A stretch of DNA of 64,000 bases from Bolinopsis microptera. Lineage: Eukaryota; Ctenophora; Tentaculata; Lobata; Bolinopsidae. Every line of letters begins with the position of its first letter. Within the stretch, counting starts at the first letter, position 1. Both the position numbers and the translations under genes were made by a program. Of this stretch, positions 1,701 to 55,300 are shown one piece after another. The stretch is taken from assembly GCF_026151205.1 (NCBI RefSeq), contig NC_087084.1:2822845-2886844 (forward strand), given 5' to 3'. The notes beneath the pieces were generated by a model. It saw nothing but the letters and a program-made list of their open reading frames with translations. It had not been told where the DNA came from and made no database searches.

Positions 1701-4700
1701 ATGTATTGGTTCCAGATAATATCAAACATTTTGATAGCTGCGGCGGCGATGCTGGGCAACTATTTTGTGTTCAAATACTACTCAACGTCCAGAACTAAGT
1801 TAGTGTCTATGCTGTACTCAAGTATTGCAATAGTCGACAGCATCGGATCACTCACCGCGCTTCTTCAAGTGGTGTCCTTCCTTCTTGTAGAGGTTTGTTT
1901 GGGGTTATTATTATTGAGTTTTTATTGAGTTTTCATTGAGTTTTCATTGAGTTTTTATTGAGTTTTTATTGAGTTTTTATTGAGTTTTTATTGAGTTTTT
2001 ATTGAGTTTTTATTGAGTTTTTATTGAGTTTTTATTGAGTTTTATTGAGTTTTTATTGAGTTTTTATTGAGTTTTTATTGAGTTTTTATTGAGTATTTAT
2101 TGAGTTTTTATTGAGTTTTTATTGAGTTTTTATTGAGTTTTTATTGAGTTTTTATTGAGTTTTTATTGAATTTTTATTGAGTTTTTATTGAGTTTTTATT
2201 GAGTTTTTATTGAGTTTTTATTGAGTTTTTATTGAGTTTTTAGTAACCTGATATGAACCTAACCCAACCTCTAAACCATAATTTAAAAAGAAGAAGGGTA
2301 GTTATTAAGTTATCGACTTGCCTGAAGGATTTCAAGTAGCTTTATATGTACTTTTATCACCTCGTTATGGAAATGTGGGCTTGGTATGCGTTGAATTAGA
2401 AATGTTCACAATGTGCGATGAAGTCATATATCCTGTGCAACTCTGGTTTAAGCATGTATAATTAATAGAACATGGATGCTAATTAATTGTATTGTATGGA
2501 CGGTAATTAATGTTAATATGGATGGAATATTTTAATTACTGATACCAGATGGGTACCATTCATGCTGACACGAGTCAGATTATAGAATTGCTGTGTACTC
2601 AACGTGGAACACGTGACTTTTACAATGTATACTATTACTATTAGTGACCACTCGCATAAAAGAGCAGAGCAAATATTCGTTATATCATGACAGGAGAGTA
2701 ATTGTAGATTAAGAGGGGGAACCGATATAAACAGCTTTAAATATATCCACCTTCGAATATTTCAGATTCAAATATTTCAGCTTCAAATATACTATTACTA
2801 TTAGTAATATAATACCGATAAATCTAGCTTCAAATATATTGAGCTTTTAATAATATATGTCTTTTAATAAGCTACCAGTTTGTGATAATATTCTTCTAAC
2901 ATCACTGTCCATTATATAATCCTGATTAATGGCTAAAATGCTAAAAGTAAATTGCACAATCTCAATTTTGTTCAATGTCTATTTTGTATAAAGATTAAAA
3001 AACCAATAATTGACAGACTCAAATATTTCGTATACAAAACCAGCTGATCGACTTAAAATTGACTAATGAAACTCTTTTTTCCAGTACAAAGTGGAGAGGA
3101 ACACTTTATATTATATTATATTACTTATTATATTAATAATTAACATTACTTCTCTTTTTTCCAGTACAAAGTGGAGAGGAACACTTCGCGTATAGACAAG
3201 GACATGTTTGGAGTTTACCTGTACCTCCTGGTGACTCTGTTCAGTGTAACTTCCAGGGTTTCCTGTTTCCTGAACGCTGTGCTGGCCGTCTCACGGGCTA
3301 TTGCTGTTTGGAAACCTTTTTACAGGTATTTTACAGGTATTTTACAGGTATTTTACCTTTTACAGGTATTTTACCTGTTTTTTAAACCTTTTACAGGTAT
3401 TTTAAACCTTTTTACAGGTATTTACCTGTTTTTTACTTTTTACAGGTATTCATGTCATTGACAATTACATGAGTGGTGCTGCCCACACGCAACTCTTTCA
3501 TAACTGATCACGTAATCCTTCTTAGAATTGCACAGAAATTTCAGAGATTATAGATATGGATCAAACTTAGATTTCCTGAAAGTTTCGTCAAATGTAATCA
3601 ATTACACTTACAGTGGTTGTGGCACGCCACCACTTCCTCTTTTTTGTACTTATAAAATACGTATAAAGTTATAAAATAGTATAATGCTAACAGATTATAT
3701 CACTATCCCAATGCAGGATTAAATACAAGCGAGTTTTAATATCGATTATTCTCTACTCCAGCTTCTGGATTGTTTTTATGATCTACGTAGGGATAGAGCT
3801 CTTCTTTCTTAGTAAGCACATACAATTAATTTATTGATTATTTAAGTTTAATGACATGATTTTATTAAATTGAAACTCTTCTATGAATCAATATTCTTTC
3901 CGATTGTATTACTCTCTATGTTATCTCTTTCTAAATTTGAGTACGTGCTTTATTACATTTATTTAATAAGCTTTTTAAAAGGAGTGTTCTGTCCGCGGTA
4001 ATTTCTTAGTATGAGCTCATTTTTGTCTTCAGCTGATATTCCGAAGTTCCCTGAGCCCATAAAACTTAGAAAAAACAACTTCTGACATATATGATGTGTT
4101 AAAACCAATAATAGCTCTTATTAACAACTCTTTAATAATCAACATTACTTCTCGGTCTCCACGTGCGGATAACCGGGAATGATGATAACTCTTTATATTA
4201 TGTTATATTACTTTATATTACTTTATAAAATATATTACTTATTATATTAATAATTAACATCACTTCTCCCCGTGCGGATAACTGGAAACAATGATAACTC
4301 TTTATATTATTTTATATTACTTTATAAAATATATTACTTATTATATTAATAATTAACATCACTTCTCCCCGTGCAGATAACCGGGAATGATGATAACTCT
4401 TTATATTATGTTATATTACTTTATATTACTTATTATATTAATAATTAACATCACTTCTCCCCGTGCAGATAACCGGGAATGATGATAACTCTTTATATTA
4501 TGTTATATCACTTTATATTACTTATTATATTAATGATTAACATTACTTCTCCCCGTGCGGATAACCGGGAATGATGATAACTCTTTATATTACTTTATAA
4601 AATATATTACTTATTATATTAATGATTAACATTACTTCTCCCCGTGCAGATAACCGGAAGGCTATAGAGTGTTCAACAGTAAACCAGTGTATCGTGGGCA

Positions 4701-49300: not shown

Positions 49301-52300
49301 AGGTAATCAGGTGACCAGGTTTCCACGTGACCAGGTCTGATTATATTATAAATGATCGAAGTGCCACCTGCATCTCTCCCTATAATCTCACTATAAAGCT
49401 ATAATCCACCGTTACTGAGCTGTCCGGTTATTGGTTGAGCTGTTTGTGTTACACGTGCTACGTCACTGCTAACTAGTACTTAACTTTATCTTACTCAATA
49501 ATGTAGTAATCTGTCTATTTATTTGTAGTAGTGGGAGTGTTTAATTTTAATTTTGTATCCTGGCATTATTTTTAACTTTGACGTTGTTTTTTCACGTGTT
49601 CTAATATAATACTGCATGCAGTATAATAGAGTGCGATTATAATAACTTACAATTGATCAAAATAAATTAAATGAACTGACCAACTGAAAGTTTCATGTAT
49701 GAAGCAATCCTAGAGGATATAATAAACACATGAAACTTTTGGTCAATTCATTTACTTTGTTGGGAAGCACTTGTTCTTATTAACATTAGTTGAGGAGTGA
49801 GCACTTAGCAATGTAGGAAACACAAAAATTAGTAACTTATAATTGCTAGCACGTGGTAAACCTCTACTTGTATAGATCTAGATAACAGTTAACACCTGTA
49901 CTCTGTGAAGTATAGTTGAAGTAATATCTAGGGGAGGGGGGGGTGACATGTTCGCTAATGTCCTCTGATGTACTTTAGGACTCTATGAGATAATGGGACA
50001 TTAGCAGACGTGCCCCCCCCCCCCCACCCCCCGTCTAGCATAATATCCTCTCATACTCTCATACTCTGATACTCATATCACAACACTGCTTTGTTTACTC
50101 AACATAAAAACAATAGTACGCAGCGCACTGAACACGCACCTTCTCTCTGTTTGTGTTATAAGTTTGTAGTGCTCCTTCTCTCTGTTTGTGTTATAAGTTT
50201 GTAGTGCACCTTCTCTCTGTTTGTGTTATAAGTTTGTAGTGCACCTTCTCTCTGTTTGTGTTATAGTGCTGTAATGCACCTTCTCTCTGTTTGTGTTATA
50301 GTGCTGTAATGCACCTTCTCTCTGTTTGTGTTATAAGTTTGTAGTGCACCTTCTCTCTGTTTGTGTTATAAGTTTGTAGTGCACCTTCTCTCTGTTTGTG
50401 TTATAAGTTTGTAGTGCTCCTTCTCTCTGTTTGTGTTATAAGTTTGTAGTGCTCCTTCTCTCTGTTTGTGTTATAAGTTTGTAGTGCACCTTCTCTCTGT
50501 TTGTGTTATAAGTTTGTAGTGCACCTTCTCTCTGTTTGTGTTATAGTGCTGTAGTGCAACTTCTCTCTGTTTGTGTTATAAGTTTGTAGTGCACCTTCTC
50601 TCTGTTTGTGTTATAAGTTTGTAGTGCTCCTTCTCTCTGTTTGTGTTATAAGTTTGTAGTGCTCCTTCTCTCTGTTTGTGTTATAAGTTTGTAGTGCTCC
50701 TTCTCTCTGTTTGTGTTATAAGTTTGTAGTGCTCCTTCTCTCTGTTTGTGTTATAAGTTTGTAGTGCTCCTTCTCTCTGTTTGTGTTATAAGTTTGTAGT
50801 GCTCCTCGCAGATCAATACTTCCCCCTGAAATTTGCTTTAAATGCCCTACAAAATTAAAAATTTTCTCTCTGGCTCCAAAATCCAAAATTTATTAACAGA
50901 TTATCTGCCCATCTGCCGTATTTCTGGATGCGAGAGGTACTGATTTTAATAGAGATCATAAGCAATGCACACTTAACAACTGATAGCTACTTTTAGAGGC
51001 TCCTTACTAACACCACACTTAACAACTGATAGCTACTTTTTAGAGGCTCCTTACTAACACCACACTTAACAACTGATAGCTACTTTTTAGAGGCTCCTTA
51101 CTAACACCACACTTAACAACTGATAGCTACTTTTTAGAGGCTCCTTACTAACTTGGTTTCGAGATAGCAGTTGACCAACAAACTAGGACCGGTGACCGAA
51201 CTTTTGAGGGGGTCCTGGTGCCCGCGGGGCAGCCACGCCCATATTTGGTTCAAATTAGGCCCAATTTAGCCAATTAGCTAAAAAAATTTGGCGGCCAAAT
51301 TCTGAAAAATGCCAGGCAAATTTTGGAATTTGGCCGCCAAATTTTTTTAAAGGCCTAACTCAAAATTCCAATACAAAACTTAAGGTCGAAATGCGATTCT
51401 ACGTTGATTATGAAAATTTTATGTAAAAATATTGAAATCCTATTGAGTTCTATTGTTTTGAGCGAAATCAGTTTCGCAAATATCGCGAACTGAGATATGG
51501 AGGGCTACTTTTTAGAGGCTCCTTACTAACACCACACTTAAGGGGGCATACACCAAATCTGTCCAGACCAAATGACCTCATAGGCAGTTCAGTGACCTTC
51601 TAGCGCACCGTTTCCACACCAATTAAAATTATTTTGAGAATACCCATTTTTGTAATCGACCATTTCCTGGTTAAGAGTGCAATTTTTGGAAAAAATTATT
51701 TTGTGGTTGAGACGCTATAAGTTAATCATTTCTTGCGGTATCGGGTTGAAATTTTGCTCGCCGTTTATTCACATCTATTTCAAGGTGTGTGTAAAATCTT
51801 GATATCGTATTTAAAAAGGCTGGTGTGTTATGAATTTTTAAAGTCAAAAAGCTAAAATTGTCCTTTTCAGGCTTATTTTAACAAAAAGTCAGTCAGGGAC
51901 GATTGGATTACTTGATGCTTGACATCAAATTGTTCTCTCAATTCTGGCGCAGTTTTTGATGCCCTCAAAAATGTTTTTACTCATTCACCTTCTGATCTAT
52001 TGGACCTCAAAGCCAAACAACAAATTTAGGCACATTTTTTGTTTTTAATATTTACTGATTTTACCAAAATTTTGATAGGAATGTGCTAGTGACTTTTTGA
52101 AGGGTGCAAAATAACCGCAACTAGCACATTTATATATGAGTTATGAACAACAAAACACCCTAAAATGCTTCCCTTTGAAGTTTTATGGTTGGTGGGCTAG
52201 ACAGTGAAACACGCAAATGTAGTGTATACTTCGTTAAATTACATCATTAGCTACAAAGGGATTAAGTTGGTTAGATTTTAGTACTATATATACGAAGATC

Positions 52301-55300
52301 TAAAATGCCTCAAACAATCGAGAATCAAATAACCTAAATAAACTAAATAAAATACACAAGGTAAATGGAGATGAACTGCACAAAAATATAGCTTCAAAAA
52401 TGAATCTTCAAAAAAGAAGAAATAAAAACTAAGAACCTTATCTTTCAACTTTGCATCTATTTAAACCCAAGCAATTAGTTCTATACTTCTCAATATACCT
52501 AAATTCCTCCCTATTTAATCCCCTGGGGTTACATTCTTTCAAAATGGCAAATTTATAGTTGTCAATAGTAAAAATGTCTCTGTGATGTTCATAGGCATGA
52601 ATCGAAAGGGCTGATTTATTACGATCCTCTACTTTAAAACAGGCTCTGTGTCCATTGACACGTTTATGAAAGTTTTGCATTGTTTGCCCGAAATAAGTGT
52701 CTTCTACAACTATCTCATAACCTTCTTCCTTTATAAGATTACAAAGCTTACATTGGGCCACATAAATAACATTTTTAGATTTACAATTATATCTGATAGG
52801 AACTACTATCTTCTGTCCATTAACTACAAATTCTTCCCCTGCCCTACACATATGCCTGCATGTTCGGCATCTTGGTGCATTGCATTTCTGAGTCCACTCT
52901 GAATTATTTTCTGCCGGTGTTCTGCAGATAGCACTGTTTCTCAGTACTCTGTTACCAATCGAGCAGCCTTTCTTCGATGCCACCGTGATTTGTGTTGGGC
53001 CTAATAGTGCTTCAATGTCCGGTTCCAACTCCTTTAAGACTGATTTAAGCTGGGGCATCTCCGAGAGGTGTTGGACTGAAAACACCATGGAAGTTTTTTG
53101 GGGAACATGAACACTTCCTTCTGAGTTGGGTGGAGGATTGAACAGCTTCTCCAACACTTTTGGCTCTAAGGCGTTCAGTTTCGCTGAGTCGTGTCCACTA
53201 CGACGCAAATCCGATTTCAATTGCTGTAGGTCCGCCTGCCGTGTATCCTCTCTTGAGTTCCTGTTAGCAATCCGAAGCATTTGGGAGAAGGCTCCCTTTG
53301 AAGTTATGGAAGAAAATGTGATTTTTTGGCTTTGCAGATAAAAAATCACATTTTCTCCCATAACTTCAAAGGGAAGCATTTTAGGGTGTTTTGTTGTTCA
53401 TAACTCATATATAAATGTGCTAGTTGCCGTTATTTTGCACCCTTCAAAAAGTCACTAGCACATTCCTATCAAAATTTTGGAAAAATCAGTAAATATTAAA
53501 AACGAAAAATGTGCCTAAATTTGTTGTTTGGCTTTGAGGTCCAATAGATCAGAAGGTGAATGAGTAAAAACATTTTTGAGGGCATCAAAAACTGCGCCAG
53601 AATTCAGAGAACAATTTGATGTCAAGCATCAAATAATCAGATCTTCCCTGACTGAATTTTTGTTAAAATAAGCCTGAAAAGGACAATTTTAGCTTTTTGA
53701 CTTTAAAAATTCATAACACACCAGCCTTTTTAAATACGATATCAAGATTTTACACACACCTTGAAATAGATGTGAATAAACGGCGAGCAAAATTTCAACC
53801 CGATACCGCAAGAAATGATTAACTTATAGCGTCTCAACCACAAAATAATTTTTTCCGAAAATTGCACTCTTAACCAGGAAATGGTCGATTACAAAAATGG
53901 GTATTCTCAAAATAATTTTTTTTGGTGTGGAAACGGTGCGCTAGAAGGTCACTGAACTGCCTATGAGGTCATTTGGTCTGGACGGCACAAACCACTGTTT
54001 TGGTGTATGCCCCCTTAACAACTGATAGCTACTTTTAGAGGCTCCTTACTAACACCACACTTAACAACTGATAGCTACTTTTTAGAGGCTCCTTACTAAC
54101 ACCACACTTAACAACTGATAGCTACTTTTTAGAGGCTCCTTACTAACACCACACTTAACAACTGATAGCTACTTTTTAAGAGGCTCCTTACTAACACCAA
54201 ACTTAACAACTGATAGCCACTTTTAGAGGCTCCTTACTAACACCACACTTAACAACTGATAGCTACTTTTTAGAGGCTCCTTACTAACACCACACTTAAC
54301 AACTGATAGCTACTTTTAGAGGCTCCTTACTAACACCACACTTAACAACTGATAGCTACTTTTTAGAGGCTCCTTACTAACACCACACTTAACAACTGAT
54401 AGCTACTTTTTAGAGGCTCCTTACTAACACCACACTTAACAACTGATAGCTACTTTTTAGAGGCTCCTTACTAACTTGGTTTCGAGATAGCAGTTGACCA
54501 ACAAACTAGGACCGGTGACCGAACTTTTGAGGGGGTCCTGGTGCCCGCGGGGCAGCCACGCCCATATTTGGTTCAAATTAGGCCCAATTTAGCCAATTAG
54601 CTAAAAAAATTTGGCGGCCAAATTCTGAAAAATGCCAGGCAAATTTTGGAATTTGGCCGCCAAATTTTTTTAAAGGCCTAACTCAAAATTCCAATACAAA
54701 ACTTAAGGTCGAAATGCGATTCTACGTTGATTATGAAAATTTTATGTAAAAATATTGAAATCCTATTGAGTTCTATTGTTTTGAGCGAAATCAGTTTCGC
54801 AAATATCGCGAACTGAGATATGGAGGCTATTTGGCTAAATTGGGCCTAATTTGGACCAAATATGGGCGTGGCTGCCCTGCGGGCACCGTTTGGCGGTCGG
54901 GGTCCGGGACCCCCTCAAAAGTTCGGTCACCGGTCCTAGTTTGTTGGTCAACTGCTATCTCGAAACAAAGTTTCACAAAAAAATCAGGGTGAACCACCCC
55001 CCCCCCCCCCTAACAACTGATAGCTACTTTCTAACGACTGTCTGAGAATAGGTGGTCATTAGGACTACAGCTGTCATGTTGTACCCGCTCTATTGTCAAG
55101 TTATTCCTTCCAGTAACATCTGTGCAACGCTAGTTCTTCGAAATTTACTGATGGAGTTTTCTAGACTCAGTAATCATCATGATTAAATGTTGAAGTTAGA
55201 TGGGGCAGGTGTGTTCCGCTTGTTGAAGTTTCGAGCTTATTTTCATAAATGTCATTAGCAAATAGAGTAGCTCTATTTTATATTCATCTATTGCTGTACT

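Follow-up and report, generated by a model that had tools for sequence, protein, structure and literature searches.

Nested organization of the element at 51538-54018

The segment at 51538-54018 of the window (the entire 64,000-nucleotide stretch of Bolinopsis microptera DNA analysed) consists, almost beyond doubt, of two nested mobile elements, a truncated Penelope-like copy within a TTAA-flanked palindromic MITE, since a perfect 13-bp direct repeat is found at both edges of the inner part (52183-53292). It is no new kind of transposon. Both partners are ordinary mobile elements, and the nesting of a retrotransposon piece in a MITE is an ordinary kind of event. The preliminary description had overlooked the direct repeat (52170-52182 and 53293-53305) and treated the borders and the open frame as one element, a view that is abandoned here as the inner and outer parts belong to separate families with the 13-bp duplication at their junctions. 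The parts are the following:

51538..52182, plus strand: 5' portion of the outer MITE, comprising TTAA and the left arm; query positions 1-645 match intact MITE copies and the last 13 bases are the first duplicate
52170..52182, plus strand: first copy of the 13-bp target-site duplication, TCCCTTTGAAGTT
52183..53292, minus strand: 5'-truncated Penelope-like copy of 1110 bp, with the last 284 codons (linker, Cys motif and GIY-YIG) followed by a 3' untranslated part
53293..53305, plus strand: second copy of the 13-bp target-site duplication, TCCCTTTGAAGTT
53293..54018, plus strand: 3' part of the outer MITE, with hairpin apex, right arm and TTAA; query positions 1756-2481 match intact MITE copies and the first 13 bases are the second duplicate
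52438..53397, minus strand: fused open frame of 319 residues from stop to stop, with 35 non-Penelope and 284 Penelope residues

When the genome was searched with the whole 2481-bp segment (40 of 540 candidates scored, so that counts are lower bounds), the window itself was the only match over the entire length; by the preliminary description, many full copies carrying both the TTAA duplications and the frame would have supported an autonomous family. Every other match was confined to the portion of one family: query 646-1756, in full or partly, for the inner element, and query 1-645 and 1756-2481, in full or partly and in direct or inverted orientation, for the outer one.

The outer element is a palindromic MITE

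The borders carry TTAA (51538-51541 and 54015-54018), and the 47-bp minisatellite unit, copies of which were located computationally, continues across it as judged by eye. The MITE end TTAAGGGGGCATACACCAAA, also given as GGGGGCATACACCAAA, begins at 51538 and an inverted near-copy of it runs from 54018. The 25-bp terminal repeats are 92% complementary, and the arms (51561-52182 and 53362-53983) are 98% complementary across 622 nt. In these respects, namely the exact TTAA duplication, the minisatellite unit restored upon removal of the element and the long inverted repeats, the preliminary description proved accurate. The arms are separated by 1179 nt only because of the Penelope insertion: subtraction of the insert and one duplicate from the window copy leaves 51538-52182 and 53306-54018 and yields a 1358-bp near-palindrome, an empty-site sequence in which the arms almost meet at a short apex loop. 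This sequence aligns from base 1 to 1358 with 15 of the 17 other MITE loci cut out (L013-L017 and L019-L030; 96.5-98.2%), all 15 of which have TTAA at both ends, while L019 and L026 align at best over 713 and 737 columns. The Penelope segment with its frame is present in none of the 17. No long coding frame was seen in the 1358-bp form of the MITE, and an element that consists of about 1358 bp of near-palindrome leaves no space for a transposase gene beside its arms.

A 20-base MITE end has 573 matches in the genome at up to one mismatch, compared to none for the reversed control. From the first 100 listed exact matches to this end (573 in all), 29 convergent neighbouring pairs of 177-1863 bp can be formed, 15 of which measure 1355-1384 bp and none of which is near 2481 bp, the window copy being outside those 100. 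The outer element hence displays the attributes of a TTAA MITE, that is TTAA flanks, inverted ends, many copies and no transposase gene. The longest pair listed (L062, C3:2076100-2077962, 1863 bp) is a MITE copy with a different insert at 703-1427, its outer parts being about 88-94% identical to this MITE family. The insert has a 174-aa frame at 700-1224, which in our judgement resembles the C-terminal tail of a LINE RT; Pfam gave no match for this frame, and the insert edges have no word of at least 8 bases in common. On the two sides of the window MITE, a 300-bp repeat comprising the end of the minisatellite array and adjoining sequence (50968-51267 and 54291-54590) is 100% identical, and the surrounding array has therefore probably been duplicated recently.

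We infer that the MITE is mobilised by a putative TTAA-specific transposase. PiggyBac elements likewise target TTAA, and the genome contains 26 matches to PF13843 (DDE_Tnp_1_7). Twenty of these loci were cut out with flanks of 1.5 kb only, and five of them (L038-L041 and L054) carry a one-sided match to the 16-base MITE end (at most 4 mismatches) that has neither TTAA nor a paired counterpart; no such end was found in the remaining 15. Neither paired ends common to the MITE and the piggyBac-type loci nor an autonomous partner of the MITE was found among these 20 loci with their 1.5-kb flanks. Separately, piggyBac-type transposase fragments with paired TTAACCCTTATCATACTGGGG ends, different from those of the window MITE, occur at approximately L055:379-2684 and L056:627-2930. 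The terminal GG and the TTAA of the MITE agree with Kolobok, for which the excerpted text of PMC6004289 gives an RR terminus. The same text assigns the TTAA-targeting T2-MITE of Xenopus to Kolobok. The outer element resembles such MITEs, as described there, in its TTAA flanks, inverted-repeat ends and hundreds of end matches, but differs in being almost entirely palindrome.

The inner segment belongs to a Penelope-like retrotransposon family

Among the candidates scored, the inner sequence is present at 12 other places (nine copies over the full 1110 bp and three partial ones), with segments 96.2-99.4% identical, and MITE sequence was found within 1.5 kb of none of the 12. The window copy ends 3' with ...CCAACCATAA, and the 3' end ...CCACCAACCATAA, oriented with the gene, recurs in 11 of the 12 other copies, L018 being broken. 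The 12 copies measured (the window included and L018 omitted) measure between 779 and 3278 bp, and no start is common to any of them except the two longest, a pattern of 5' truncation with a constant 3' end. These two, L031 and L032, agree at 99.3% across 3283 bp, and both contain an intact 973-aa ORF, the C-terminal 284 residues of which correspond to the window segment. As both whole-ORF copies are intact and so similar, the family has probably been active recently. A third copy (L061) encodes residues 1-899 without the 3' part. The assignment of the window frame to a Penelope-type GIY-YIG protein with a Cys linker and without RT, made in the preliminary description, is upheld by this match to the 973-aa protein.

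Upstream of the whole-ORF copy in L031, 106 bp of the Penelope 3' end recur at 3542-3647, followed by a short stretch that is seemingly part-inverted relative to them, a pLTR-like arrangement comparable to the pLTR of Penelope-like elements in the excerpted text of PMC3846280. The L031 protein has at least 47 matches in the genome, down to 33% identity (47 of 1186 candidates scored). Further Penelope-like elements are 33-49% identical to it, many with long open frames, which suggests that several Penelope-like families have recently been active in this genome.

Alignment of the 973-aa protein with three genome elements, 33-45% identical, identified the segments TLDV-ALYPSI, GIPTG, R-IDD and NFLD, which we take to be RT motifs. 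IY 47-48, YFG 71-73, R82, H86 and E134 (window numbering) are invariant in the four aligned sequences and presumably represent the GIY-YIG catalytic residues; C8, C13, C16 and C41, situated ahead of the GIY motif, are equally invariant in the four. A family profile matched the reverse transcriptase Drt3a in the PDB (E = 1.8e-4), while the endonuclease profile gave one irrelevant PDB match (E = 1.4), and a PDB query with the 973-aa protein by itself brought up YoeB twice, weakly (E 0.18-0.19). Neither an RT nor a GIY-YIG domain was recognised by Pfam in the family proteins. The putative RT and GIY-YIG names are accordingly based on motifs, the Drt3a match and the anatomy of the family, in which RT and C-terminal GIY-YIG are joined in one ORF, the window copy having no RT. 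Conserved Cys residues between RT and endonuclease are given as a mark of Neptune-like elements in the excerpted text of PMC3846280, and by this Cys-rich criterion alone the sequence suggests that the family may belong to the Neptune group. Rfam scans (E up to 0.5) gave no match in L031 and L032 and 21 matches in L001, all to microRNA families, below gathering scores and at palindromes.

Insertion site and target-site duplication

Intact MITE copies, for example the one at C9:16996193, show a 13-base overlap between the two outer pieces; in the window these bases are present twice. Edge repeats of 9-13 bp, placed at the edges or a few bases from them, were found in five of the 12 measured Penelope copies (window 13, L034 13, L035 11, L033 10 and L010 9 bp), and the other seven, both whole-ORF copies among them, have an edge word of at most 8 bp or none. 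The excerpted text of PMC3846280 describes Penelope-like elements with one ORF that combines RT and a C-terminal GIY-YIG endonuclease, with target-site duplications of 8, 9 and 10 bp and 5'-truncated copies, with insertions into another Penelope and into a non-LTR element, and with one insertion lacking a duplication and joined via microhomology. As far as that text goes, the family studied here is alike in its single ORF, short duplications, 5' truncation and insertion into other elements, the window copy differing as a fragment without RT.

The location of the window copy near the apex of a palindrome raised the idea that Penelope insertion is directed to hairpins. Ten of the 12 measured copies (without L031 and L032) were made into empty sites and compared to 300 random 120-base stretches. 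The hairpin ranks out of 300 were 3 for L010, 23 for the window and 55 to 287 for the other eight; such scattered ranks reveal no consistent preference, and the idea was discarded.

The fused open frame

The frame at 52438-53397 (minus strand) begins in MITE sequence, and only its last 284 residues match the C-terminus of the 973-aa protein; 35 residues are derived from outside the Penelope segment, or 29 when counted from the first Met. This in-frame fusion of MITE sequence and 284 Penelope residues is taken as chance. Compared to each of seven other copies, the window shows 0 to 4 amino-acid changes across the 284 residues. Among its nearest relatives, L036 differs by one synonymous codon, L031 by two synonymous, L003 by one synonymous and one nonsynonymous and L032 by two nonsynonymous. 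Outside this nearest group, L033, L034 and L035 differ by 4, 4 and 6 of 284 codons. Judged by these differences the window copy appears to be young, so young that its open frame is no evidence of use, and the frame is probably without function. Comparison of eight copies over the 284 codons (L006, L010, L011, L012 and L018 being omitted) gave 1 to 8 differences per pair, too few to decide dN/dS, the comparison that the preliminary description had suggested, and in some pairs nonsynonymous changes outnumber synonymous ones. Between L031 and L032, 8 synonymous and 10 nonsynonymous codons were found among 964 (dN 0.0044, dS 0.0132). Any constraint is a property of the Penelope family and uninformative for the composite.

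Origin of the composite

An autonomous cut-and-paste family with TTAA specificity that moves by means of its own GIY-YIG nuclease, one of the two possibilities raised in the preliminary description, is extraordinarily improbable and is contradicted by the sampled copies of both families. It would account for borders and ORF being combined in a single copy with the frame still open, but the ORF segment is absent from all 17 other MITE loci cut out, and all 12 other sampled copies of the segment lie free of MITE sequence to a distance of 1.5 kb. Moreover, the 13-bp duplication flanks the segment exactly, copies with the whole RT-bearing ORF exist, and none of the 29 pairs drawn from the first 100 listed exact matches to the MITE end has a spacing near 2481 bp. 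In substance, the ORF is missing from copies that carry the same terminal inverted repeats, and it forms the 3' part of Penelope elements, of which two have it whole; the preliminary description had itself set such observations against its proposal. The chance that the assembly has artificially joined a MITE and a Penelope copy is vanishingly small: both partners are repeats, a type of sequence prone to misjoins, but a misjoin is not expected to create a perfect 13-bp duplication at both junctions with the rest of the MITE kept.

The other possibility raised earlier, that the MITE captured the end of a Penelope gene, is correct insofar as a Penelope end does reside inside the MITE; it most likely came there by its own retrotransposition, as the duplication, the 3' end and the truncation indicate. 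Uptake at the DNA level, with the gene end now carried as cargo, is very unlikely. It is compatible with the position of the segment in a MITE that is complete in other respects and retains its TTAA ends, but it predicts no 13-bp duplication, no family 3' end and no 5' truncation like that of the free copies, and the 40 candidates scored, out of 540, included a single composite. DNA-level capture is rejected on account of the 13-bp duplication together with a 3' end that is the family's own. Since the MITE is otherwise complete and its TTAA ends are intact, the composite would in principle be movable in trans; that it is still moved by the MITE transposase, spreading the GIY-YIG endonuclease with 29 MITE-coded residues as cargo, is given little more than a nominal probability.

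Retrotransposition into the MITE implies a history in two steps. A palindromic non-autonomous MITE first entered a TTAA inside the 47-bp minisatellite. The 5'-truncated copy and the 13-bp duplication of MITE sequence were left afterwards by a Penelope-like retrotransposon whose coding copy lies elsewhere in the genome; its cDNA synthesis may have begun at a break close to the apex of the MITE and have halted early. Direct observation covers the two families and how they join, the duplication, MITE copies without interruption and a truncation series that includes whole-ORF copies. Nicking by the GIY-YIG enzyme and target-primed reverse transcription, both acting in trans, are steps that we infer from known Penelope-like elements.

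As in other nested transposable-element insertions, the target duplication of the inner element lies within the sequence of the outer one; the present case differs in that the host is a palindromic MITE and in that the insertion happens to lengthen an open frame. No report of this pairing of MITE and Penelope was found in searches of an open-access literature library, and either family may already have been described. The case calls for caution, as a retrotransposon fragment nested in a palindromic MITE, when read from a single copy, mimics a new transposon class. The nesting also sets the sequence of events, the MITE being older at this site than the Penelope insertion that it carries.
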